Of a stretch of 64,000 nt of DNA, positions 25,917 through 51,393 are shown in pieces. Position numbers and translations under genes: made by a program. Under the pieces are notes generated by a model. It was not told the origin of the DNA, made no database searches, and worked only from the letters and a program-made list of their open reading frames with translations. How positions within the stretch are numbered: the stretch's first letter is position 1; the number at the start of each line of letters is the position of its first letter. The DNA comes from Candidatus Goldiibacteriota bacterium HGW-Goldbacteria-1 (lineage in GTDB: Bacteria > Oederibacteriota > PGYV01): the NCBI GenBank assembly GCA_002839855.1, contig PGYV01000004.1, positions 7,556 to 71,555 of the forward strand, read 5' to 3'.

Positions 25917-26543
25917 CTAAAAATTAATCACGCCTTTAAACACCATTATTAAAAGTACCTGAAGCGAAAATATAAAAAATATTATCTTAGAAGCCTGATC
26001 AGAATATACAAATTTATTCTTTACATAATGAAAAATCAGCATGTAAAACACCGCCGATATAACCGCAATAATAACACCGCTTCCCGATACGGGTATTGAA
26101 ACAGAAAAAACAGGCCACAGGTACATTAAAATTTTAGTTATTCTGCTGTTTACATTTTTATCCGCGCTTTGCGCCAGCACAGCAAAACAGACAGTTGACA
26201 GTATTCCGGCAGGCAGGGTTATAAGCTCCGGCATTGCACCCGTGGTTCCATAGTAAGCCGCACCGGCCTGTGCGCTGACAATTATTACAGCGGAATAAAT
26301 ATCGGATTCATTTTCAACTTTATTACCCGCGGCAAATAATAACCCCGCGCAGAATATAAAAGATGATACAACAGCCGTATATGCGCTTTGCCCCGTAAAG
26401 TAAAGAACAAAAACAGCGCCTGTGATTACCGTAAGAACATAATCATTTAACGAAAAACGATCTTTAAATCCTGTCCAGCGCTCCCTTATGCCAAACAGTA
26501 CAATCACAAGTATAAATACCAAAAAGAAATATAATATGTTCAA
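25917..26543 (-). CDS. Unrecognised polytopic membrane protein (208 aa)
   Basis: Not recognised. About six or seven hydrophobic helices: 2-17, 31-50, 55-72, 82-100, 105-125, 135-172 (probably two) and 185-203. A short cytoplasmic-looking stretch RERWTGFKDRF follows the first helix. The start is TTG with GAAGGTGAT upstream; it overlaps the TGA of the small gene before it. It is last of five overlapping genes (29485 to 25917), so its product is expected to act with theirs. Confidence 0.65.
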   Translation of the reverse strand: MNILYFFLVFILVIVLFGIRERWTGFKDRFSLNDYVLTVITGAVFVLYFTGQSAYTAVVSSFIFCAGLLFAAGNKVENESDIYSAVIIVSAQAGAAYYGTTGAMPELITLPAGILSTVCFAVLAQSADKNVNSRITKILMYLWPVFSVSIPVSGSGVIIAVISAVFYMLIFHYVKNKFVYSDQASKIIFFIFSLQVLLIMVFKGVINF

Positions 26544-26692
26544 TTGTCATCACCTTCAAAAAAAACAAATACCAGCCCGCATATAACGGCGGCTGAAGCG
26601 GCAAAAAAAACCGCAGGCAGCGCGCCTGCAGCTCCCGCTATTGCAAAAACCGCGCCTGCAGAGGCGAATATCAGCATTCCGGATAAGTTCAC
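26540..26692 (-). CDS. Small membrane protein (50 aa)
   Basis: A GTG-started reading frame of 50 codons with GGAGG 6 nt upstream. It overlaps the preceding stop (GTGA) and the following TTG start. The product begins MNLSGMLIFASAGAVF and is almost entirely hydrophobic: two helices separated by a short turn (about 4-27 and 27-46), with an acidic tail EGDDN. The tight overlaps on both sides and the ribosome site make it a real gene despite its size. No family is recognised. Confidence 0.7.
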   Translation of the reverse strand: MNLSGMLIFASAGAVFAIAGAAGALPAVFFAASAAVICGLVFVFFEGDDN

Positions 26693-27867
26693 AGGACGCC
26701 TCCGGAATATAATATAAAAACAAATGCCGCCGAGACAAACAGCAGTTTTAACGTGTTTACCGAAATAAAAATCCGCTTTATAAAAACGGAATTCAGTTTC
26801 GAAATCACACCAAGGATTATTATCAGATTATTAACCGCGCTTACTGAAAATATAGCCGCACCAATATATCCCGCCATCTGAAGAAACTGGTTTTCGGAAG
26901 GCATTATACAAATTATGCTTATGGCAAAAACTTCTGCTGTCAGGGTTAAAAAAGAAATAATAACCGGAAGCGCCGGTTTTACTATTTCATCCGGCCTGAA
27001 TTTTAACTGTGTTACATTGCCTAAAATATCTTTGCTCCTGTTTAAAAGTGCAAACGCGCCAAATAAAAGCACATAATAAACGCCGGCCCCTTTCAAAATT
27101 AAACCCGCGCCTTTGGTAAACAGTATTCCAAATAGAAATAAAAATAACAGCGATACAGAGCCCGCAAAGAAAAATTCCCCGCGGTTTTCCTGCGTTATTG
27201 TGTTATAAACAGAGACCGCAATAAAATATATAAACGCGCCCGCTATTGCATAAGGATTCAGCAGGCCCGCCAGTGCGGTCAAGGCAATCAGTTCAAAATA
27301 AACACCCATTAACGTTTCCGGTTGTGCCACTTTTGCCGTTAAACCGCCTTTATCGCTAAACAGCACTGCATTGGAAGAAGCAAGGGCAAAAAAGAAACCC
27401 ATACTTTGAAAGAATACGGTATTGCCCGCGCTGAAAAACAGCACGCACGCAGCCGCGTAAAAAGCTTTCTGCGCCGCCAGTTCCCTGTGAATTCCGGATG
27501 CGAACAAAAGCGAAAAACCCGCGCCCGCAAAAGCCGCCGCTTTCAAGGCAGGTGCCTGAGCGTTTAACGAAACCATGGCGCATAAAACAAAAAGAAACAT
27601 AGCTCTTATATCTTTACTTCCAGACAGAACCGCCATTAACAAAAGCACGCACACAGCAGCCGCGGAAAGTGACGAAAGTAAGAAATATGCAAAAAACGCG
27701 TCAGCTCCCGCTGTGTAAATTATTCCAAAAGCGGTAATTATTCCCGCAGCGGTAAAAAATAAGCCGCCCGCTTTTTTCATAAAATCCTTACGCATCACAC
27801 TGCATATGAAACCGGAAAAAATAATCATAACCGGCAGGAATATAATATAACGTTCTATATGCGTCAT
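26689..27867 (-). CDS. Unrecognised polytopic membrane protein (392 aa)
   Basis: Not recognised. About eleven or twelve hydrophobic helices along the whole length. No proton-channel signature of the NuoL/M/N family is visible, although size and helix number would suit a reduced member. The loop around SKDILGNVTQLKFRPDEI is the longest polar stretch. ATG overlaps the upstream stop by 4 nt and its stop overlaps the next GTG, so translation is coupled across the set. Partner in an unidentified membrane complex, by inference. Confidence 0.65.
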   Translation of the reverse strand: MTHIERYIIFLPVMIIFSGFICSVMRKDFMKKAGGLFFTAAGIITAFGIIYTAGADAFFAYFLLSSLSAAAVCVLLLMAVLSGSKDIRAMFLFVLCAMVSLNAQAPALKAAAFAGAGFSLLFASGIHRELAAQKAFYAAACVLFFSAGNTVFFQSMGFFFALASSNAVLFSDKGGLTAKVAQPETLMGVYFELIALTALAGLLNPYAIAGAFIYFIAVSVYNTITQENRGEFFFAGSVSLLFLFLFGILFTKGAGLILKGAGVYYVLLFGAFALLNRSKDILGNVTQLKFRPDEIVKPALPVIISFLTLTAEVFAISIICIMPSENQFLQMAGYIGAAIFSVSAVNNLIIILGVISKLNSVFIKRIFISVNTLKLLFVSAAFVFILYSGGVL

Positions 27868-29075
27868 ATCAGCCCGTTAACCTGTATTACCAAAAGTTTA
27901 TTGTCTTTTCTTGACGCCACAAAAAGTTTTCTGCCGTCTTTAGAAAAAGCCATATTCCCCGGAAGGGTGCCGGGATCAAATTTTATTGTATGTTCTATCT
28001 GCCCTGTTTTAATATTCACAGATACCACTTCGTCTTTTAACGGGATGCTTAAAAAAATGTGCCTTTTACTTCTGGAAACCGCCCCGCCTGACGGGCCGCC
28101 GGGCACAATTATGCTGTCTGTAATACGGTACTGCGCCATATCAAATACCGTAACGCTGCCTTTGCCGTTATATGAATACTCCCATTCATTTACCACCGCA
28201 AGCTCTCTTTTATTCATCTGCAGCAGCGCCACCGGAGATGTGCCCGTCTGCGCCCTTGTAAAGACAATCTGCCTTTTTTCCGTCTCCGCCACTTCTATTG
28301 TATTTGTATACTTGCAGGTAATGTATAAATATTTACCGTCCGGTGATAAAAACAGCGCTGACGGCCACCTGCCTGACTCTATTCTGCCTGTCACTTTTTT
28401 CTGCGCGACATCTATCACGGATATCCTGGAAGAGCCCATGTTGGCGGCATAAATAAGCCCTTTTTTAGAGTCATAAACAACAGCGGCGGGAAACTGCCCT
28501 CCGGTTGAAACATTATATGTTTCTTTTGATACCGTGTCATAAATTGTAACTGTCCCCGACAGCCTGTCAGCGGAAATTATTTTTTTATCCTGTTTTGTTA
28601 TGTCACAAGGGTACCCGCCCGCCTGAATCTTATATTTTTCCTTCAAATCCCCGCCAAATACCTTAATAGTGTTTCCTGTCAGGCTTCCCACAATAAGTTC
28701 ATCGTCCTGCGAAATATATACTTCACCGGGGGTGAATTCAAGTTTAATCTCGCCTGCAACCGCGGGCATTTCCGGCTTGCCCGCGCACCCGTTAAAAAAA
28801 ACAAGCGATACAAGCAATACAAACAGAGCCAGATAATACTCTTTTCTTATTCTAACAATATCACCCGCTGATGCCATAAAATAAAAACAATATAAAGTAC
28901 CGGCCAGAAACGCTATGTACTGCACAGCCATGCCGCCGCCCAGTATAAGATAAATTATCCCCGCCTTAAGCATAAGCGCGGACATAATAAGAAACCCTTT
29001 TTTATCGCCTTTATAAAAAAGAAAATATGCGCTAATTGCCGCTGCCACAGTCAGAATAACAATAAAAGCATGCAT
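27864..29075 (-). CDS. Membrane domain fused to a beta-propeller (403 aa)
   Basis: Residues 1-97 hold four hydrophobic helices (about 3-20, 28-47, 50-70, 80-97). The first three have the spacing of NuoK/MnhC-type subunits, without their conserved glutamates. Helix four ends LVFFNGC with Cys97 in a lipobox-like context. Residues 100-403 are a YVTN-type propeller with repeated blades (GLIYAANMGSSRISVIDV, GKYLYITCKYTNTIEV, GRKLFVASRKDNKLLVI). No plausible internal start separates the two parts, so this appears to be a true fusion with the propeller outside the membrane. It starts at the upstream stop (1-nt overlap) and ends overlapping the next start. Confidence 0.68.
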   Translation of the reverse strand: MHAFIVILTVAAAISAYFLFYKGDKKGFLIMSALMLKAGIIYLILGGGMAVQYIAFLAGTLYCFYFMASAGDIVRIRKEYYLALFVLLVSLVFFNGCAGKPEMPAVAGEIKLEFTPGEVYISQDDELIVGSLTGNTIKVFGGDLKEKYKIQAGGYPCDITKQDKKIISADRLSGTVTIYDTVSKETYNVSTGGQFPAAVVYDSKKGLIYAANMGSSRISVIDVAQKKVTGRIESGRWPSALFLSPDGKYLYITCKYTNTIEVAETEKRQIVFTRAQTGTSPVALLQMNKRELAVVNEWEYSYNGKGSVTVFDMAQYRITDSIIVPGGPSGGAVSRSKRHIFLSIPLKDEVVSVNIKTGQIEHTIKFDPGTLPGNMAFSKDGRKLFVASRKDNKLLVIQVNGLI

Positions 29076-29485
29076 TATTCTTTACTCCTTATGGAATTAA
29101 TCAGCATTCCGGCAGAATACAGACATAGAAATACCAGCGCCGCTGACAGAATGTTTTTGCTGATAATGACATCACCGGTTAAAAAACCCGCGGCGCCCCT
29201 GTAAATTGCAAATGCAATAACAGCAGCTGACAGCAGAAACGGCAGAATATCCCGTAAACGCCAGGATGTTTTTTCACCGCAGCGGAAAATAAGAATATCT
29301 GCCGCAAAAGAAAAGAAAGCAAATATCATGGAAGCTCCCCCTTCAATCCCCATCGACCGCATGCACGCGAAAATTCCCGCATTGCAGGCTGCCAGAAAAA
29401 GAAAAGCAGCACGGCTGTTATTTATGAAATAAACAGCCGGCTGCATTAAAAGTAAGATAACAATAAAAATTATCTGCACGGTCAA
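29075..29485 (-). CDS. Unrecognised membrane protein (136 aa)
   Basis: First of the five overlapping membrane genes, 31 bp after secF. Five hydrophobic helices: about 3-20, 25-41, 50-68, 80-98 and 112-130. Topology and place before the NuoK-like gene are reminiscent of NuoJ, but no diagnostic residues are seen, so this is only a suggestion. Confidence 0.62.
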   Translation of the reverse strand: MTVQIIFIVILLLMQPAVYFINNSRAAFLFLAACNAGIFACMRSMGIEGGASMIFAFFSFAADILIFRCGEKTSWRLRDILPFLLSAAVIAFAIYRGAAGFLTGDVIISKNILSAALVFLCLYSAGMLINSIRSKE

Positions 29486-29516: not shown

Positions 29517-30440
29517 CTATTTTACCGTCCTGTGTTTTTTCTCAAACATCTCCCAGTCATACACCATGGGGCTTGCCACAAAAACGGAAGAATACACGCC
29601 AAGCACAATACCTATGACAAATGAAAAGGAGAAATTGAAAAGCACGTTGCCGCCATAGAATAAAAGCGCCGCAGCCACAAACATGGTTGTTAAAGCTGTT
29701 ATTACACTTCTGCTTAAAACCTGGTTTATGCTGGAATTCATTATTTCATTTAAGGGCTGTTTAAGAATATTTCTCATGTTTTCCCTTATCCTGTCAAACA
29801 CAACAACCGTATCTGTCAGCGAATAACCCGCAAGGGTTAAAAGCGCCGTTACAACCAAAAGGTCTATTTCTTTGTTAAACAGAACAAGTATTCCTATAAC
29901 AACAATAACGTCATGAAAGGTGGCAAGCGTGGCTGCTACCGCAAACTTAAATTTAAACCTTATCCAGATATATACAAGAATACCCACAAGCGCCCAGAAT
30001 ACCGCAAGAAAAGCTTTTTCTTTAAGCTGCGAAGACACCACAGGCCCCACTTCACTTGACCCTGAAACGGTAATTGCTTTATCTCCCGTACCCGCGGTAA
30101 GTACTGATACCACTTTTTGTTCCGCCTGTCCCGCTTCCGCGTCTTTTACGCCTATCCTTATCATAAACTCATTGCTGTCAGCGGCGCCTACCTGCTGTAT
30201 AACCGCTTTATGAAAGTTACTTGCGATCATGGTTTCCCTTATCTTGCCTACTGTCATAGGTTCGCTGAACTTAACCTGAACCGTTGAACCGCCGGTAAAA
30301 TCAAGGCCCATATTGGCAGTGCCCGTAATTACCTTGAAAATACCAAACAGGCCATTTAACAGAAGAATTAAAGAGATTACATACGCAATCTTTCTTTTTC
30401 CGATAAAATCAAACTTTGTGTTTTTTATCAATTCAATCAT
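29517..30440 (-). CDS. secF: Protein translocase subunit SecF
   Basis: Partner of SecD that uses the proton gradient to help export through SecYEG. 307 aa with six helices: the first near 15-35, a periplasmic P1-like domain (FTGGSTVQVKFSE), then five helices with conserved YSLTDTVVVFDRIREN. It follows secD by 13 bp. Confidence 0.96.
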   Translation of the reverse strand: MIELIKNTKFDFIGKRKIAYVISLILLLNGLFGIFKVITGTANMGLDFTGGSTVQVKFSEPMTVGKIRETMIASNFHKAVIQQVGAADSNEFMIRIGVKDAEAGQAEQKVVSVLTAGTGDKAITVSGSSEVGPVVSSQLKEKAFLAVFWALVGILVYIWIRFKFKFAVAATLATFHDVIVVIGILVLFNKEIDLLVVTALLTLAGYSLTDTVVVFDRIRENMRNILKQPLNEIMNSSINQVLSRSVITALTTMFVAAALLFYGGNVLFNFSFSFVIGIVLGVYSSVFVASPMVYDWEMFEKKHRTVK

Positions 30441-30453
30441 TTTTCATACTCCT

Positions 30454-31791
30454 TTATATACTTAAGGTTTTATAATTTTTTCTTAAATCAAAAACAGACT
30501 TTGTCACAAAGAACGCGGTGAAAAGGCTTATGGTGATACCCCAGAACATGGTGACCGCGAAACCCCTGATAGGGCCGGTGCCAAACTGGAACAAAATCGC
30601 GGCAGTGATAAGAGAAGTCACGTGCGAGTCAATAATGGTCCAAAGCGCCCTGTTATACCCCGCGTCAATTGCCGCCCTGATTGTTTTTCCGGTCCTTAAC
30701 TCTTCCCTGATTCTTTCAAGTATTAAGATATTGGAATCAACAGCCATACCCAAAGTAAGCGTAATACCCGCGATGCCCGGAAGCGTAAGCGTGGCGTCAA
30801 GCGCGGCAAGTATTCCAAAGATGAAAATAACATTTAAGGCAAGCGCGAAATCCGCTATAATTCCCGACATTCCATAATATATCGCCATGAAAATTAAAAC
30901 CAGAAGCGCGCCGATAAACATGGAAGTCATACCTTTTTTAACCGCGTCTGCCCCCATCGAAGGCCCTATTATCTGTTTGTTGACAATCTTGACAGGAGCC
31001 GGCAGAGCGCCCGCCCTTAATATAAGCGCAAGGTCTCTTGAAGTGTCAATTGTAAAGTTGCCTTCTATTACCCCTTCGCCGCCGCTTATCCTGCTTTTAA
31101 TAACAGGCGCGGAATAAACTTTATCATCCAGTACAATTGCCAGGTTGCGGTTTACGTTGTCTCCCGTAATTTCGGCAAACTTTCTGCCGCCCGCGGGTGA
31201 CAGTTTAAATCCTACAACAGGTTCACCGTACTGCCCCATCTGCACTTTCGCGTCAATAAGGTCGGCTCCGGTTATTAAATCCTTTTTTTCTATAACGTAA
31301 CGTTCGCCTTCCTTGCCTTCCAGCACCATTACTTCGGCCGGAACTTTGTCTGGGTCAATGTTTCCGTCGGCATCCGTCATTTCTGTTACCTTATACCTTT
31401 CACTGACAAGCTTAAATTCAAGCAGTGCCGTTTTGCCTATGATGTCAAGCGCGCGGGTTGTGTCCTTAATGCCCGGCAGCTGAATCACTATGTACTTTTC
31501 GCCTTCCCTTTGAATCAAAGGTTCTGCCACGCCAAGCGCGTCTATCCTGTTCCTTAAAATCTCCAGGGCGCGCGAAACGGCTTCTTCAAGTTTTATATTT
31601 TCCGGCAGCTTGGTTTCATCCACGGCAAGCTTTAAAAGCATACCGCCCTGAAGGTCAAGCCCAAGTTTTACACTTCCTTTTTTTGTAACATTTCCTTCCG
31701 CGTCCTTTATATCCATTGGCGGCCATATCTGCCATACCGAAAGGATTAAAAGCGCGAAAGTTAAAACAGCAACAAACTGAATCTTTCTCAT
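30454..31791 (-). CDS. secD: Protein translocase subunit SecD
   Basis: Membrane export subunit of 445 aa. Contains LGLDLQGGMLLKL after the first helix, the P1 domain (ALEILRNRIDALGVAEP, IVIQLPGI), and five C-terminal helices with TLGMAVDSNILILERIREEL. ATG at 31791 has GGAGG 7 nt upstream; the in-frame TTG before it is not needed. It lies 31 bp downstream of the transketolase C-terminal subunit, so it may be read through from that operon. Confidence 0.96.
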   Translation of the reverse strand: MRKIQFVAVLTFALLILSVWQIWPPMDIKDAEGNVTKKGSVKLGLDLQGGMLLKLAVDETKLPENIKLEEAVSRALEILRNRIDALGVAEPLIQREGEKYIVIQLPGIKDTTRALDIIGKTALLEFKLVSERYKVTEMTDADGNIDPDKVPAEVMVLEGKEGERYVIEKKDLITGADLIDAKVQMGQYGEPVVGFKLSPAGGRKFAEITGDNVNRNLAIVLDDKVYSAPVIKSRISGGEGVIEGNFTIDTSRDLALILRAGALPAPVKIVNKQIIGPSMGADAVKKGMTSMFIGALLVLIFMAIYYGMSGIIADFALALNVIFIFGILAALDATLTLPGIAGITLTLGMAVDSNILILERIREELRTGKTIRAAIDAGYNRALWTIIDSHVTSLITAAILFQFGTGPIRGFAVTMFWGITISLFTAFFVTKSVFDLRKNYKTLSI

Positions 31792-31824
31792 CAAATTTCC
31801 TCCTTATAAAATTATTTCTATTTT

Positions 31825-32772
31825 TTATCTGTTAAGCAGTTTTTTTGCTTCAGCAGTGATATTATTACCTGTTAAACCATATTTATTGAACAGCGCTTCC
31901 GGTTCGCCGGATTCTGCGAACATGTCCATCATGCCGATTCTTTTAACCCTGACAGGAAGGTTTTCTGAAAGCACTTCACACACGGCGGAACCAAGCCCGC
32001 CTACTATACTGTGTTCTTCTATTGTTATGACATTGCGCGTCTTTCCCGCGGACTGTATTATCATCTTCGCGTCTATGGGTTTGATTGACGGCATGTGTAT
32101 TATCTCCGCGGATATTCCGTCTGATGCAAGCAGCTTATGCGCTTCAAGCGCCTTAAACAACATTACACCGGTGCTGATAATGGTTATGTCTTTGCCTTCT
32201 TCCGCAATTATTCCTTTGCCGAATTCAAACTTGTAATTCGAATCAAATACCACAGGCGTATTCATCCTTGCAAGCCTTAAATACACTGGTGAATCGTAAT
32301 AATCCGCAAGGTACTCTATTATTTTTTCCGCTTCAACAGAATCAGCCGGGGCAACAACTTTCATATTTGGTATTGCCCTCATTATGGCAATGTCCTCGCA
32401 GGCCTGGTGAGTGGGGCCGTCTTCGCCCACGGATATTCCGGCGTGCGTGACCGCTATTTTTACGGGTAAGTTCGGATAGCATATGGAATTTCTTATCTGT
32501 TCCCACGGCCTTCCCGAACCGAACATGGCAAAGGTGGAAGCAAACACGGACATTCCGGATGCAGCAAGCCCCGCTGCGGTTCCCATTAAATCCTGTTCCG
32601 CGATTCCCATGTCAAAAAACCTTTCAGGATAAACTTTTCCAAAACGTGCTGTCTGCGTGGACTTTGCAAGGTCCGCGTCCAATACAACTAAATTCTTATG
32701 CGTAGCGCCAAGTTTTGCCAGCGTGTCGCCGTATGTATTTCTCATTGATGTGGGTTTTGCGCTCATTTGCAT
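31825..32772 (-). CDS. Transketolase, C-terminal subunit
   Basis: Pyrimidine-binding and C-terminal domains of a split transketolase (315 aa), catalysing two-carbon transfer in the pentose phosphate pathway. Landmarks are GIAEQDLMGTAAGLA with the catalytic glutamate, THAGISVGEDGPTHQ, and the C-terminal NVITIEEHSIVGGLGS. ATG at 32772 lies 6 nt after GGAGG inside the upstream gene, whose stop overlaps at ATGA. The TPP pyrophosphate-binding half is in the upstream fusion gene. The pair is a transketolase rather than DXS, judged by length and motifs. Confidence 0.92.
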   Translation of the reverse strand: MQMSAKPTSMRNTYGDTLAKLGATHKNLVVLDADLAKSTQTARFGKVYPERFFDMGIAEQDLMGTAAGLAASGMSVFASTFAMFGSGRPWEQIRNSICYPNLPVKIAVTHAGISVGEDGPTHQACEDIAIMRAIPNMKVVAPADSVEAEKIIEYLADYYDSPVYLRLARMNTPVVFDSNYKFEFGKGIIAEEGKDITIISTGVMLFKALEAHKLLASDGISAEIIHMPSIKPIDAKMIIQSAGKTRNVITIEEHSIVGGLGSAVCEVLSENLPVRVKRIGMMDMFAESGEPEALFNKYGLTGNNITAEAKKLLNR

Positions 32773-34550
32773 TTGCACCCTCCAAGTTCATTAAGGGCTT
32801 TTTCTGTCTCTGCCTCATTGGGTGCGGCTCCGTGATATTCCACTTTTCTTTCCATGAATGATACGCCTTTGCCTTTAATTGTCCTTGCTATTATTATGGT
32901 CGGGATTCCCTTAACTTTTTTTGCCTCTTCAAACGCTTCCATTATTGCTTCAATGTTATGCCCGTCAATTTCTATTACGTTCCAGTTAAACGCTTTCCAC
33001 TTTTCCACCACAGGTTCAAGCCCGCACTTTACCTGCCCTATGCTGCCGTCTATCTGAAGCCCGTTATAATCAAGAATCGCGCAGACATTATCAAGCCTGC
33101 GGGTATACGTGGACATGGCCGCTTCCCATATCTGGCCTTCCTGTATTTCGCCGTCGCCAAGCATTACATAGACGCGGTTGTTCAAGCCTTTTAATTTTGA
33201 AGCCAGCGCCATTCCGTTGGCAATGGAAAGCCCCTGCCCAAGCGAACCGGTGGTCATATCAACGCCGGGGGTTTTTTTCATATCAGGGTGGCCTGAAAGG
33301 TCACCGTCAATTTTACGCAGATTCCACAAAGCCTCTTCTTTCATAAAACCCGCTTCAGCAAGAGCGGTATAAAGCGCGGGCGCGGCGTGGCCTTTCGAAA
33401 GAATAAAACGGTCGCGTTCTTCCCACTTTGGATTTTTAGGATCTATCTTCATAACGTGTTTGTAAAGAACCGCTATCACATCCGCGGCGGACAACGAACC
33501 TCCCGGATGACCCGAACAGGCGTATCCAAGCATTTTTATTATGTTAAATCTCATATTCACCGCTGTCTGTTCCAGCATTTTTATTGTGTCAGTATATTTC
33601 TTATAACTTCCGCCCGCCTTATGGTGTTCTGCCAGAAATGAATCCAGCTGCGCTTTATCCGGAAGCCCTTCCTGCGCGCCTATTGTCTGCGTCACTATCG
33701 CGCCTGCCGCGTTGCCGCAGTCAATGGCGTCAATTACAAATTTTCCGTCCGCAATGGCACACGCGACAGCACCCACAAAAGCGTCCCCGCCGCCTACGGT
33801 ATCTTTGACATCCATTCCATAACCATGAAATACGGTGGAGCCGTGTTCGTTTACAAGAAGCGTGCCTTCTTTTCCCATTGTTATAATTACATGGTTAACG
33901 CCAAGTTTGCGCAGTTCATTGCCCGCAAGCGAGCCTGTTTCCATGTGTGATATAAGCCTGTTTGTCAGGTATCCGCCTTCGCGTTCGTTCATTATTACGA
34001 TATCAAGCCCGCGCAGGACTTCTTTTATTTCATCGCGGTGTTTGGTGCCGGCGTTGCCGACATTCATCACTGTCTTGACCTTATATTTCTGCGCCAGTTC
34101 CAGCGCGCGTTTGATTGCAGGTATCGGTATTTCGGTACAGACTACAACCACTTTGCTGCGCTTAATTGCCGCTTCTGCTTTATCAATATCAGAGGGTATA
34201 AGCGTGTCATTAGACCCGGTGAACCAGGTGACCTTATTACCTTTCTGCCCTGTGGTGTTTACAAGCGCAACGCCTGTTGAAACAGATTCATCTATTATAA
34301 AATATTCAAGATTTATATTGGGGTGTTTTAAGTTTTTCATGGCAATGTCAGGAACCTGATCTTTGCCTTTTTTGGCAATAAAATTCACTTTTTTTCCAAG
34401 CCTGGCAATTGCCACCGCCTGATTAGCGCCTTTTCCGCCCGGTAATATGTAAAAATTATCCCCGGCAACAGTTTCCCCGCGTTCAGGCATACGTTCTGTT
34501 TTTACCATAAAATCTATATTAATACTGCCTATAACCGTAATTTCATCCAC
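32763..34550 (-). CDS. Ribokinase-like kinase fused to transketolase N-terminal subunit
   Basis: A 595-aa two-part enzyme. Residues 1-305 are a PfkB-family sugar kinase: VIGSINIDFMV start, sugar-binding PGGKGANQAVA (37-47) and the catalytic DTVGGGDAF (250-258, base Asp256; the usual form is DTxGAGDxF). Residues 315-595 are the transketolase TPP domain with SGHPG (346-350), KGHAA (386-390), GSLGQG (435-440), GDG (465-467) and DYN (494-496). The residues are intact in both halves, so both may be active. Ribokinase makes ribose 5-phosphate, a transketolase substrate, so the fusion links salvage to the pathway. GTG start with GGAGG 10 nt upstream. I know of no standard protein with this architecture. 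Confidence 0.9.
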   Translation of the reverse strand: MDEITVIGSINIDFMVKTERMPERGETVAGDNFYILPGGKGANQAVAIARLGKKVNFIAKKGKDQVPDIAMKNLKHPNINLEYFIIDESVSTGVALVNTTGQKGNKVTWFTGSNDTLIPSDIDKAEAAIKRSKVVVVCTEIPIPAIKRALELAQKYKVKTVMNVGNAGTKHRDEIKEVLRGLDIVIMNEREGGYLTNRLISHMETGSLAGNELRKLGVNHVIITMGKEGTLLVNEHGSTVFHGYGMDVKDTVGGGDAFVGAVACAIADGKFVIDAIDCGNAAGAIVTQTIGAQEGLPDKAQLDSFLAEHHKAGGSYKKYTDTIKMLEQTAVNMRFNIIKMLGYACSGHPGGSLSAADVIAVLYKHVMKIDPKNPKWEERDRFILSKGHAAPALYTALAEAGFMKEEALWNLRKIDGDLSGHPDMKKTPGVDMTTGSLGQGLSIANGMALASKLKGLNNRVYVMLGDGEIQEGQIWEAAMSTYTRRLDNVCAILDYNGLQIDGSIGQVKCGLEPVVEKWKAFNWNVIEIDGHNIEAIMEAFEEAKKVKGIPTIIIARTIKGKGVSFMERKVEYHGAAPNEAETEKALNELGGCKCK

Positions 34551-34744: not shown

Positions 34745-37249
34745 CTATGCCTTTATAATCTTTACCAGCATATCCTTCTGCTTCTGCATGAATTTTGCCG
34801 CGGCCGCCTTTGTGGCGCCTTCCACGTAAATATGAAAATACGGCCTGTCATTATCCGGAATAATAAGCGCGTTGGATGTGGTTTCAGTGAACCTTATGCC
34901 TTCAACTTCATTAACGTCGTTCTTTTTCTTCATTTCGCCAAGCGCCATCATAACTGCGCCCCTTTTATCCCATGGTACAGGGACTGTATCGGTAAGTTTT
35001 ATGTACTTTGGAAGCGAAGCCACTAAAGTGGAAAGCGGTTTGCCGTATTTTGCCAGGTATTCAAGGAATTTTACCGTGGATATCATGGCGTCAAAAGCCG
35101 GCTGGAATTCCGAAAAAATGTACCCGCCTTTTTCTTCCGCCACAAACTTTGCCTTGCCCGTGTTAGCGGCTGTCATCATGGCGCGGTAGCTTGTACCCAC
35201 GCGCAATGCTTTGCCGCCGTCTGCCAGCGCCATTTTTTCAAAAACTCCGGGTACATTTACCGGAACCGCAACCGTAGCGCCTTTATTTGAACCAAGGAAA
35301 AGTTTTACCATTGTCATAAGGCCGTCATCTTCAATCAAAAGCTGGCCTTTATCATCTACAATAAAAATTTTCTGAGCGCCGGCGTCTATCATTATACCGG
35401 CGTCCGCTTTTAAGGTCTTTACCATTCCGGCAAGGCTGTCTAAGTCTGTCTGAAATTTTTCCGCGGAACGGGTAAGTTTTTTCTCGTTATTATGGGCGTT
35501 TAGCGCTATAACATCACAGTTAAGCCCGCCTAAAATGGACGGGAAAATATTTAAAGCATTACTGTATGAATAATCTATGATTATTTTGAACCTTCTGGCT
35601 TTTATCTTTTCCACGTCCACAAATTTCATGAAACCGTCCTGATAATATTCCAGCGCCCTTGGCGGGTATGAAATTATCCCCACATCATCGCTTTCCGCCC
35701 TTCTGTATTCTTCGCGGAAAAAAGAATTTTCTATGGATTTTTCCTGTGACAGCGAAATGTCCATGCCGTCGCTGTCAAAGAATTTAATATCAAGCATCTT
35801 CGGGTCATACGGCGACTTTCTTATATGAAGCCCGCCCGCCACTTTTAGAGACTTGGCGACATATTTTGTAACCGGAAGCGGCATTATGCGAAAGTCGTAA
35901 ATGTTAACGCCTGTTGAAAGTATGCCCGCCATTATGCTGCGTTCTATCATAAATGACGCCCTGTGGTAATCGCGCGATATCAGCACATGGCTGCCTTTTT
36001 TTAATGTGGACCCAAACGCGCCGCCTATCCTTGCGCCTATTTCAGGTGTAATTTCTGTGTTTGCCATGGCGGTAATGCCGTAAATATCAAACAGCCTGTT
36101 GCTCCACCGTTCGCCGTAAATAAGCGATCCGGAGATAACAGAAAAATCATCCACTGTCTTTTTTGGCCACAGCTTTACTTCAGGTTTAATTATGGTCTCT
36201 TTTCCAATATGGCAGTCGTCGGAAATAACCGCGCCCACGCCAATGTACGCCTTGTAACGTATCATATTGTTGCGGCCTATTACAGCCTCTTTAATATCAA
36301 CTTCCTTTTCAATTTTGTTGTTGTCCCATATGATAGAACGCACAATCTTGGCGCCGCTGTCAATATAACAGTTGTCGCCGATTACAGAACTTGCTATTTC
36401 CGCGCCCTCTTCAATAGTGACGTTGTTTCCAATCACCACGGCGTCCCTGAATTTTACGCCGGCTGCTATCTTTACGTCTTTTCCCACCCATACGTCGCGT
36501 CCTATCTTGCCTTTTCTTTCGCCTTTAATTTCACACTCTATTTCGCCTTTTAATATATCCTCGTGCACCTGCCTGTATTCCGCAAGCGTACCGATGTCTT
36601 TCCAGTAACCGTCCCCGGTAAAACCATACAGGGCTTTCTTCTTTGCAAGCAAATCCGGAAAAAGCTGTTTGGCAAAATCATAGTCCACATTTTCAGGGAT
36701 GTTTTTGAAAATTTCCGGTTCAAATATGTAAATGCCGGTATTTATAGTGTCAGAGAACACTTCACCCCAGGATGGTTTTTCAAGAAGCTTTGATACCTTC
36801 CCGTCCTTTTCTGTGACCACAATGCCGTATCTTAAAGGGTCTGTGGACTTTGTAAGCACTATGGTGGCAAGCGCTTTATTTTTTTTGTGGCTTGCCATGG
36901 CATCGCCAAGATTGAAACTTGTAAAAACGTCGCCGCTTATAATCAGGAAACTGTCATCTTTCAGTTTTTCTTTTGCAAGCGTTATGCAGCCTGCGGTACC
37001 AAGGTCCTGTTCGGACGTGACGTAATTAATTTTAACGCCAAAATCCGCGCCGTCCCTGAAATAACTTGTTATCACTTCCGGCTGAAAATACAGCATCATC
37101 GTAATATCCGTCATGCCGTATTTCTTTAAGAGGTTTATTATGTGCTCCAGCATCGGCGTGTTCATTACCGGCGCCATGGGTTTGGGAATGTTTGTGGTAA
37201 GCGGCCTTAACCTTGTTCCAAATCCGCCTGCAAGAATAACTGCTTTCAT
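34745..37249 (-). CDS. Sugar-1-phosphate nucleotidyltransferase with degenerate phosphomannomutase domain
   Basis: An 834-aa fusion. Residues 1-235 are a nucleotidyltransferase with GGFGTRLRP (8-16), SGDVF (105-109) and KPSWGEVF. Residues 245-375 are left-handed beta-helix repeats. Residues 380-830 have the phosphohexomutase fold but have lost its motifs: the catalytic TASHNP loop reads HIRKSP (475-480), the Mg-binding DGDADR reads DAGAQK (622-627) and GExSGH reads EEKGGY (705-710). I infer a GDP-mannose or related NDP-sugar synthase whose mutase part is now regulatory or structural. Proteins of this ManC/PMM layout are known from other phyla. AGGTATTC-type leader before ATG. Confidence 0.85.
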   Translation of the reverse strand: MKAVILAGGFGTRLRPLTTNIPKPMAPVMNTPMLEHIINLLKKYGMTDITMMLYFQPEVITSYFRDGADFGVKINYVTSEQDLGTAGCITLAKEKLKDDSFLIISGDVFTSFNLGDAMASHKKNKALATIVLTKSTDPLRYGIVVTEKDGKVSKLLEKPSWGEVFSDTINTGIYIFEPEIFKNIPENVDYDFAKQLFPDLLAKKKALYGFTGDGYWKDIGTLAEYRQVHEDILKGEIECEIKGERKGKIGRDVWVGKDVKIAAGVKFRDAVVIGNNVTIEEGAEIASSVIGDNCYIDSGAKIVRSIIWDNNKIEKEVDIKEAVIGRNNMIRYKAYIGVGAVISDDCHIGKETIIKPEVKLWPKKTVDDFSVISGSLIYGERWSNRLFDIYGITAMANTEITPEIGARIGGAFGSTLKKGSHVLISRDYHRASFMIERSIMAGILSTGVNIYDFRIMPLPVTKYVAKSLKVAGGLHIRKSPYDPKMLDIKFFDSDGMDISLSQEKSIENSFFREEYRRAESDDVGIISYPPRALEYYQDGFMKFVDVEKIKARRFKIIIDYSYSNALNIFPSILGGLNCDVIALNAHNNEKKLTRSAEKFQTDLDSLAGMVKTLKADAGIMIDAGAQKIFIVDDKGQLLIEDDGLMTMVKLFLGSNKGATVAVPVNVPGVFEKMALADGGKALRVGTSYRAMMTAANTGKAKFVAEEKGGYIFSEFQPAFDAMISTVKFLEYLAKYGKPLSTLVASLPKYIKLTDTVPVPWDKRGAVMMALGEMKKKNDVNEVEGIRFTETTSNALIIPDNDRPYFHIYVEGATKAAAAKFMQKQKDMLVKIIKA

Positions 37250-50162: not shown

Positions 50163-51191
50163 TTAATCAAGCACGGATATCGTAAGTTCCGGCCTTTTAA
50201 CCGCGCAGAATTCAATTCTGGCTTCCGCGAAAAGTTCCTGGAAACTTTTATCCGGGTATAAGTTGGATGTCACAAATCTTTTTATCTTGGCATTAACCAC
50301 CATCTTGGCGCATATAATACACGGAGAGTGCGTGCAGTAAATTGTGGCGCCCTGCGTGCCGCCGCCGTGAAGCGCGGCCTGTATTATGGCGTTCTGCTCC
50401 GCGTGAATTGCGCGGCAGATTTCGTGTCGCGTGCCTGACGCAATTCCCATCTGGTCGCGCAGGCATCCAAGTTCCGTGCAGTCCTTAACCCCTGCCGCCG
50501 CGCCGTTATAACCGGTGCTGACAACGTAATTATTTTTAACTATGACGGCGCCCACGTGATGGCGCAGGCAGGTGGAACGCTCTGCGGTTAAGTATGCCAT
50601 CTTCATAAAGTATTCATCCCACGACGGGCGTGAATACGGTTTATATTCCAGTTCTTTAAGAATTGTATCCAGTTTTCCCGTAAGCTGTTCAAAGGTGCCG
50701 GAATTGTCAATTTTTATATCCGCCAGGTCATAACACCGGGAAAGCTGCTGTGCTTTTTCATCCGCGGAATTTTCTTTTTCTTCTTTCTTAATAAAGTCTT
50801 CAAGTGTGGAAGCGTCTCCGGGGCGCGCGCGCTTAATTGACCTTTCAAACCGGGTCTTAACGTCCGCGCTTATCCCTATTAATTTAAAGCCGGGAAGGTT
50901 TTTTCTTAACTCCTCAATTTCATGTACATTCCTTATGCTGTCAATAACCGCCTGAGGCGAATTTTTTATTTTTTTAATTGTCCTTGCGGCAAGCACCGCG
51001 GAGCCTTCGCTGTTCCTTAATTCATTTCCTATAATAATAAGGTTATCCCTTACCGGCTCTTTGCCCCTTAATTTGGCTTCATCGCGGAGGATATCTGATA
51101 ATGAAGATGCAATGAACTTTTTACGTTCTACAAGATATTTAATGGCTTCGCCCTTGCCTGACGCGTTTGGTCCCGTAAATCCAAGAAACAT
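50163..51191 (-). CDS. P-loop kinase-like domain fused to cytidine/dCMP deaminase
   Basis: A 342-aa fusion. ATG at 51191 has GAGGTGG just upstream, and the product starts FLGFTGPNASGKGE, a P-loop with GKG instead of GKS/T. Residues 1-185 resemble dephospho-CoA or nucleotide kinases. Residues 195-335 are a zinc deaminase with HAEQNAI and PCIICAK, plus the ComEB-type TCLRHHVGAVIVK and GYNGAA. The same domain order occurs in AvcD antiphage deoxycytidine deaminases, which are longer, but also in housekeeping proteins, so a defence role is open. Confidence 0.85.
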   Translation of the reverse strand: MFLGFTGPNASGKGEAIKYLVERKKFIASSLSDILRDEAKLRGKEPVRDNLIIIGNELRNSEGSAVLAARTIKKIKNSPQAVIDSIRNVHEIEELRKNLPGFKLIGISADVKTRFERSIKRARPGDASTLEDFIKKEEKENSADEKAQQLSRCYDLADIKIDNSGTFEQLTGKLDTILKELEYKPYSRPSWDEYFMKMAYLTAERSTCLRHHVGAVIVKNNYVVSTGYNGAAAGVKDCTELGCLRDQMGIASGTRHEICRAIHAEQNAIIQAALHGGGTQGATIYCTHSPCIICAKMVVNAKIKRFVTSNLYPDKSFQELFAEARIEFCAVKRPELTISVLD

Positions 51192-51272
51192 ATGCCACCT
51201 CGTATTTTTATCGTTTTCCCTGGCAATCATTATACTTATAGGATGATATTTTTCAATAGCTAAAAATCTAAA

Positions 51273-51393
51273 ACACGAGGGACGGATGCACAGAGGGTCG
51301 GATGGTCGGCTAAAACACAAAAAGACGCTGACACAAATACACGGATGGTCGGTTTAAACCTTCTGTCCCTCCGACCTTCCGTCCCTCTGTCCC
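51273..51393. repeat. GAGGGACGGATG word array with inverted arms
   Basis: GAGGGACGGATGCACAGAGG on one side and CTGTCCCTCCGACCTTCCGT on the other form potential fold-back arms. It directly follows the DUF89 stop. Confidence 0.7.

Follow-up and report, generated by a model that had tools for sequence, protein, structure and literature searches.

A gene set conserved behind secDF in one order of Oederibacteriota encodes a divergent antiporter-like subunit and a beta-propeller behind a membrane domain

Background

What is encoded by five overlapping genes that follow secD and secF on the reverse strand of a contig of Candidatus Goldiibacteriota bacterium HGW-Goldbacteria-1? The genes, here called A to E, lie in a 64,000-nt stretch of its 2.86 Mb genome (contig PGYV01000004.1, positions 7,556 to 71,555; "the window"). 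Complex I, Mrp, MBH, MBS and formate hydrogenlyase have a common membrane arm, and the coupling between antiporter-like subunits and what drives them is a long-standing question. A first-pass annotation, made from the sequence alone, had seen in the five genes a dedicated membrane set akin to the membrane arms of complex I, Mrp and hydrogenases. The set is a four-gene core (five genes here), conserved throughout one order, with a divergent antiporter-like subunit (C) and a protein in which a propeller follows a membrane domain (B). The reading favoured here, which has about an even chance of being correct, is that of a redox-free membrane module derived from complex I/Mrp, with a periplasmic propeller and predicted to be ion-conducting or ion-gated.

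Conservation of the gene set

The five open reading frames (ORFs; Table 1) are present as first annotated, with overlaps of 1, 4, 4 and 4 nt (A/B TAATG, B/C ATGA, C/D GTGA and D/E TTGA). Gene E is followed by dnaK and then by groES and groEL. In both other genomes of the genus, A-B-C-D-E occupy the interval from secF to dnaK in identical order; one of these genomes has the locus split across two contigs. All five genes are under purifying selection. Against the nearest relative, the ratio of nonsynonymous to synonymous substitution rates (dN/dS) is 0.20 for A, 0.10 for B, 0.19 for C, 0.10 for D and 0.28 for E, with 0.05 for secF as a reference. The genus-wide conserved order and these ratios indicate that A to E are real, fairly fast-drifting genes.

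Standard annotation would indeed leave the set as hypothetical. Scans of all five proteins against Pfam, NCBIfam and PHROGs gave matches only for the propeller of B; for A, C, D and E nothing in Pfam or NCBIfam reached significance. The lack of a match for four of the five proteins is what chance ORFs or mis-assembled genes would give. This explanation is refuted by the order, length and topology kept across the order, by dN/dS values of 0.10-0.28 and by a confident fold for C (see below).

The core A-B-C-D occurs in constant order behind secF in 13 of 13 genomes of the order with a recoverable locus, where it is either intact or truncated only where a contig ends; a fourteenth genome (61% complete) has no secF match and stands outside this count. 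Scattered homologues, which the first-pass annotation had named as speaking against a dedicated complex, are not the pattern seen: across the order the core genes occur as a set behind secF. The encoded proteins have similar sizes throughout: 134-152 amino acids (aa) and 4-5 transmembrane (TM) helices for A, 400-417 aa for B, 389-429 aa and 10-13 predicted TM helices for C, and 47-54 aa and 1-2 TM helices for D. Gene E is an add-on to this core and is confined to two families of the order (f1 and f6). One genome (G008) carries two near-identical secF-A-B-C-D loci on separate contigs (L119 and L136), which probably represent a strain mixture in the assembly (4% contamination) and not a duplication.

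Genes A, C and D are diverged past ordinary sequence detection. When 45 genomes of the phylum were searched with a C profile built from the three genomes of the genus, no further convincing match emerged. The other members of the order were missed, and were recovered through synteny behind secF and not by hidden Markov model search. The weak matches that this profile gave on G000 contig 7 and G007 lie in other reading frames, most of them large, and were discounted as chance. A scan of the GTDB contig collection found the known genus relative only. The B profile recovered order members with full loci at E-values of 1e-135 or lower and nothing comparable among 384 genomes, in which the sole other match at E<1e-20 was a generic propeller protein without a membrane part.

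The fixed place of the set downstream of secDF suggests a function connected with protein export or with the envelope. A narrower version of this idea is that the set is an accessory of SecDF or the Sec translocon, coupling ion flow or membrane insertion to export while the propeller acts on emerging periplasmic substrates. In all genomes of the order that were examined, the set follows secF immediately or, in three of them, with one exchanger gene between, and chaperone genes lie downstream (dnaK and groESL in this genus, dnaK in G006). The evidence for such an accessory is confined to the neighbourhood, and secDF elsewhere in the phylum has other neighbours, secF in the other orders being followed by unrelated genes. 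No sequence similarity was seen that would tie the set to YajC, YidC or any other Sec component, and this explanation is considered improbable. The gene found between secF and A in three genomes from two families encodes a Na+/Ca2+ exchanger (PF01699, confirmed for two copies; the L124 copy was judged from sequence only), and its insertion is a hint of cation biology.

Gene C: an antiporter-like subunit

The AlphaFold2 model of C, computed from an alignment of 12 relatives from across the order, has a predicted local distance difference test score (pLDDT) of 82 and a predicted template modelling score (pTM) of 0.82. It consists of 14 long helices and a beta-hairpin following TM2. When this model was compared with the PDB by Foldseek, each of the 47 matches with E<=0.001 was an antiporter-like subunit from complex I, NDH-1, formate hydrogenlyase, MBS or Mrp; query TM-scores among them reached 0.69.

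Profile comparison agrees with the model. In hhalign, the order-wide C profile scored 35-39 against NuoL, NuoM, NuoN, HyfB and HyfF of the same order, mostly with colinear alignments that span 208-261 columns. Scores did not exceed 21 for decoys (reversed or locally shuffled) or 16 for SecD, SecF, DctM, DctQ and SulP. For C and NuoM, comparison with 60 decoys (maximum 23) gave z=9.1. Profiles from the three genomes of the genus were too shallow to show anything in hhalign, and order-wide profiles worked for C only. C falls below the PF00361 cut-off and is detected by no Pfam model; when canonical Nuo/Hyf proteins and the sequences of the PDB were searched with order-wide profiles in HMMER, neither C nor A matched canonical subunits. 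Because Pfam and HMMER are blind to this relationship and the probability that HH-suite itself assigns to it is low (12-37%), the assignment of C rests on the fold and on the decoy-controlled profile comparison. Together, the predicted fold and these profiles show C to be a remote homologue of the antiporter-like subunits (NuoL/M/N, MrpD). The kinship first proposed for the set is therefore upheld, but its carrier is C, which had been left without an assignment, and not the genes that had been named.

C shares with NuoL/M/N, MrpA/MrpD, HycC/HyfB/HyfF and MbsH (PF00361) the fold, the helix number, the beta-hairpin after TM2 and a colinear profile alignment. As in the NuoL/M/N-type subunits, there is a charged residue in TM12, and the TITQEN loop of C stands at the position of Q-T-D-x-K-R-L-L-A-Y. 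C differs from the canonical subunits in its low identity (about 11%, below every curated cut-off), its shorter length (392 aa), the missing TM7 Lys and PFH-W-PD loop, and the lack of an adjacent redox gene.

No redox subunit genes were found near the set, and the canonical nuo and hydrogenase-4-like operons of the genome are on other contigs. As the genome has both of these operons elsewhere, the set is an extra one. One alternative is that it belongs, as a paralogous distal membrane module, to complex I or the hydrogenase-4-like complex of the cell itself, since C is remotely related to the NuoL/M/N and HyfB/F subunits encoded in the same genome. This is very improbable: the locus is separate and has a conserved link to secDF, both canonical operons have antiporter-like subunits of their own, and a periplasmic propeller has no counterpart there.

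Gene B: a propeller behind a membrane domain

All five products had been described as membrane proteins. This holds for A, C, D and E, but the C-terminal part of B is a soluble beta-propeller that the first-pass annotation missed. It matches PF10282 (E-value: 4.7e-12; 46.2 bits, cut-off 21.7), PF21783 (E-value: 7e-12) and TIGR02276 (E-value: 9.2e-20; 70.4 bits, cut-off 27.85). The propeller holds the most conserved motifs of B, and W237-P238, C254-x-Y-T-N258, N296-E-W-E-Y300 and N303 are invariant across the order. In sequence it resembles YncE and the surface-layer YVTN propellers (PDB 1l0q, 3bws, 3vgz). Unlike these, it is preceded in the same protein by a membrane domain of three helices and by an internal lipobox-like signal, and it has invariant motifs of its own (NEWEY and C-x-YTN).

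Counts of positively charged residues predict that B has its N-terminus outside, followed by three helices and an exported propeller. The lipoprotein-like signal sequence is internal, after the three TM helices, and its Cys97, preceded by Gly here and by Gly or Ser among the relatives, is invariant in 14 of 14 of them. Because the signal and Cys97 are invariant, the propeller is inferred to be exported and, once the internal lipobox is recognised, anchored as a lipoprotein on the outer face of the inner membrane. A literature search on internal lipoboxes, and on antiporter-like subunits with a propeller lipoprotein, found nothing relevant in the journals covered, which were an incomplete selection.

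The membrane domain of B gave no profile signal against NuoK or MrpC. The conserved Glu of NuoK TM2 is absent, and the invariant Lys37 is nearby instead. Against TM1-3 of NuoJ there is a borderline colinear likeness (z=3.6, with one decoy nearly equal).

Genes A, D and E

The suggestion that the first two genes recall NuoJ and NuoK does not survive profile comparison; size, helix number and predicted topology are all that is shared. NuoJ and A both have five TM helices with an N-out/C-in arrangement (positive-inside counts), and NuoK and the N-terminal domain of B both have three with the N-terminus outside. A has no significant match to the NuoJ profile (z=2.3). AlphaFold, which had been proposed as a check, gave the confident antiporter-like model for C but a weak one for A (pLDDT 68). 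The latter has no match in the PDB, although with so uncertain a model this says little taken by itself. By-eye readings of E as NuoH-like and of A and B as NuoJ and NuoK were dropped after profile comparisons with decoys.

The start codon of A is probably GTG 29479 rather than TTG 29485. By eye, the sequence AAAGGA (29494-29489) lies 9 nt before the GTG and only 3 nt before the TTG, which favours the former.

Proposed model

The model proposed for the set is the following. The products of A-B-C-D, joined by E in some families, would form a small stand-alone inner-membrane complex around C. C would derive from the membrane arm of complex I, Mrp and group-4 hydrogenases, with the redox or other cytoplasmic arm absent. 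Within the complex, C would be the large ion-handling-type subunit; co-conservation and topology suggest that it is accompanied by small helical partners, namely A, D and the three-helix domain of B. The complex would move or gate a cation (the proton or another one), either through C or alongside it. The propeller of B may bind a periplasmic partner or ligand and couple it to this ion movement.

A close parallel is found in Mrp operons (MrpA-G), which like the set are membrane-only and combine an MrpD-type subunit with small helical partners; MrpC, like the N-terminal domain of B, has three TM helices (PMC9568556). Unlike Mrp, the set has no recognised MrpA, E, F or G, its B domain lacks a NuoK/MrpC profile signal, and it includes a putative propeller lipoprotein, which Mrp does not have.

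Support for an ion role comes from buried polar residues of C that are kept across the family. E. coli NuoN has the named residues Glu133, Lys217, Lys247 and Lys395, of which Lys247 and Lys395 are essential, and MrpD has the pair Glu137/Lys219 (PMC13073174, PMC9568556). C keeps the TM12 acid and Asn346 (Table 1), and an Asp in TM9 is found in 9 of 9 sequences outside the genus. A conserved T-x-E-E/N loop after TM8 aligns with the canonical Q-T-D/N-x-K-R-L-L-A-Y-S loop. The TM5 site (NuoN E133 position) is Gly in the genus and E, D or N in seven of the nine sequences outside it. The TM8 Lys (NuoN K247 position) is found within one turn in families f2, f3 and f5 and is absent in f1 and f6; the TM5 and TM8 assignments may be off by one helical turn.

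Several points weigh against the model. The TM7 Lys (NuoN K217 position) and the P-F-H-x-W/PD loop are found in no relative of C, and C of this genus lacks the TM5 acid, the TM7 Lys and the TM8 Lys, so that its canonical proton-path residues are incomplete and C may have lost the ability to conduct ions. Like the add-on E, the core members A and D have no recognised relatives. Cleavage and lipidation at an internal signal behind three helices would be unusual, and the grouping of A to E in one complex is suggested by gene order. On its residues, ion conduction by C is plausible for the family and weakest in this genus.

The chief alternative is a degenerate scaffold: C would have kept the antiporter fold but not ion transport, and its sole task, shared with A, D and the helices of B, would be to hold the lipoprotein propeller in position, for instance as an envelope assembly or quality-control factor. 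Most of the canonical TM5/TM7/TM8 charges are lost in the genus, and A, C and E drift fast while the propeller stays conserved, as this explanation would predict. A plain anchor would need only one helix, however, and buried polar residues, including Glu312 and Asn346, are kept across most of the order, as is the invariant Lys37 of B. A scaffold is possible, but on balance doubtful. The ion-handling complex around C is preferred here.

Table 1. Features of the gene set, its upstream neighbours and the inserted exchanger genes
Feature	Position	Strand	Description
secD	30454-31794	-	Upstream neighbour of the set
secF	29517-30440	-	Directly upstream of gene A
Gene A	29075..29485	-	Five predicted TM helices (N-out/C-in) in 134-136 aa; homologues follow secF in 13 genomes of the order
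Gene B	27864..29075	-	403 aa; 3-TM domain, lipoprotein-type signal and YVTN beta-propeller; in order genomes, not outside
B 1-79	28839..29075	-	Three TM helices, N-out; Lys37 in TM2 invariant in 14/14 relatives
B 80-97	28785..28838	-	Positively charged start, hydrophobic stretch, Gly-preceded lipobox-like Cys97
B 98-403	27867..28784	-	YVTN/YncE-type beta-propeller
Gene C	26689..27867	-	392 aa; predicted divergent antiporter-like subunit (NuoL/M/N, MrpA/D fold; AlphaFold2, Foldseek, hhalign)
C 223-228 (TITQEN)	27184..27201	-	End of TM8; aligned with NuoL/M/N Q-T-D/N-x-K-R-L-L-A-Y-S loop
C Glu312	26932..26934	-	Acidic in 10/12 relatives; aligned with TM12 Lys/Glu of NuoN/NuoM (NuoN K395)
C Asn346	26830..26832	-	Within a TM helix; invariant in 12/12 relatives
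Gene D	26540..26692	-	50 aa; GTG start; two TM helices, N-in/C-in; core member
Gene E	25917..26543	-	208 aa; about six TM helices; TTG start; families f1 and f6 only
Na+/Ca2+ exchanger, L121	1033-2037	secF-oriented	PF01699
Na+/Ca2+ exchanger, L122	970-1965	secF-oriented	PF01699
Na+/Ca2+ exchanger, L124 (judged from sequence only)	986-1984	secF-oriented	PF01699

Other genes in the window

Three further ORFs of the window combine domains. In the 595-aa product of the gene at 32763-34550, a PfkB/ribokinase-type sugar kinase (PF00294, residues 1-298) is fused to an N-terminal transketolase domain (PF00456, residues 332-590). The C-terminal half of the transketolase is encoded by the next gene (31825-32778), and the fusion is also 595 aa long in G001. 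Such a protein could feed ribose 5-phosphate straight into transketolase. An 834-aa fusion (34745-37249) joins a nucleotidyltransferase with hexapeptide repeats to a phosphomannomutase/phosphoglucomutase, and in a 385-aa ORF (50163-51320) a P-loop AAA_17 domain stands together with one of the cytidine/deoxycytidylate deaminase type.

Conclusions

The set is a variant of the complex I/Mrp membrane-arm kind and not a wholly new fold, and no description of such a machine was found in the journals covered. A further-reaching and more tentative proposal, which may well prove wrong, is that it is a redox-free ion-translocating machine of a new class, driven or gated from outside by a lipid-anchored propeller, restricted to one order and tied to the SecDF locus. 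The case of C indicates that strongly drifting members of the antiporter family escape Pfam and are found only through synteny and structure. A variant without a cytoplasmic arm, with several canonical charges lost and an accessory domain on the opposite face, would reveal which features of the fold are indispensable and would show whether the antiporter fold serves uses beyond redox or plain antiport.

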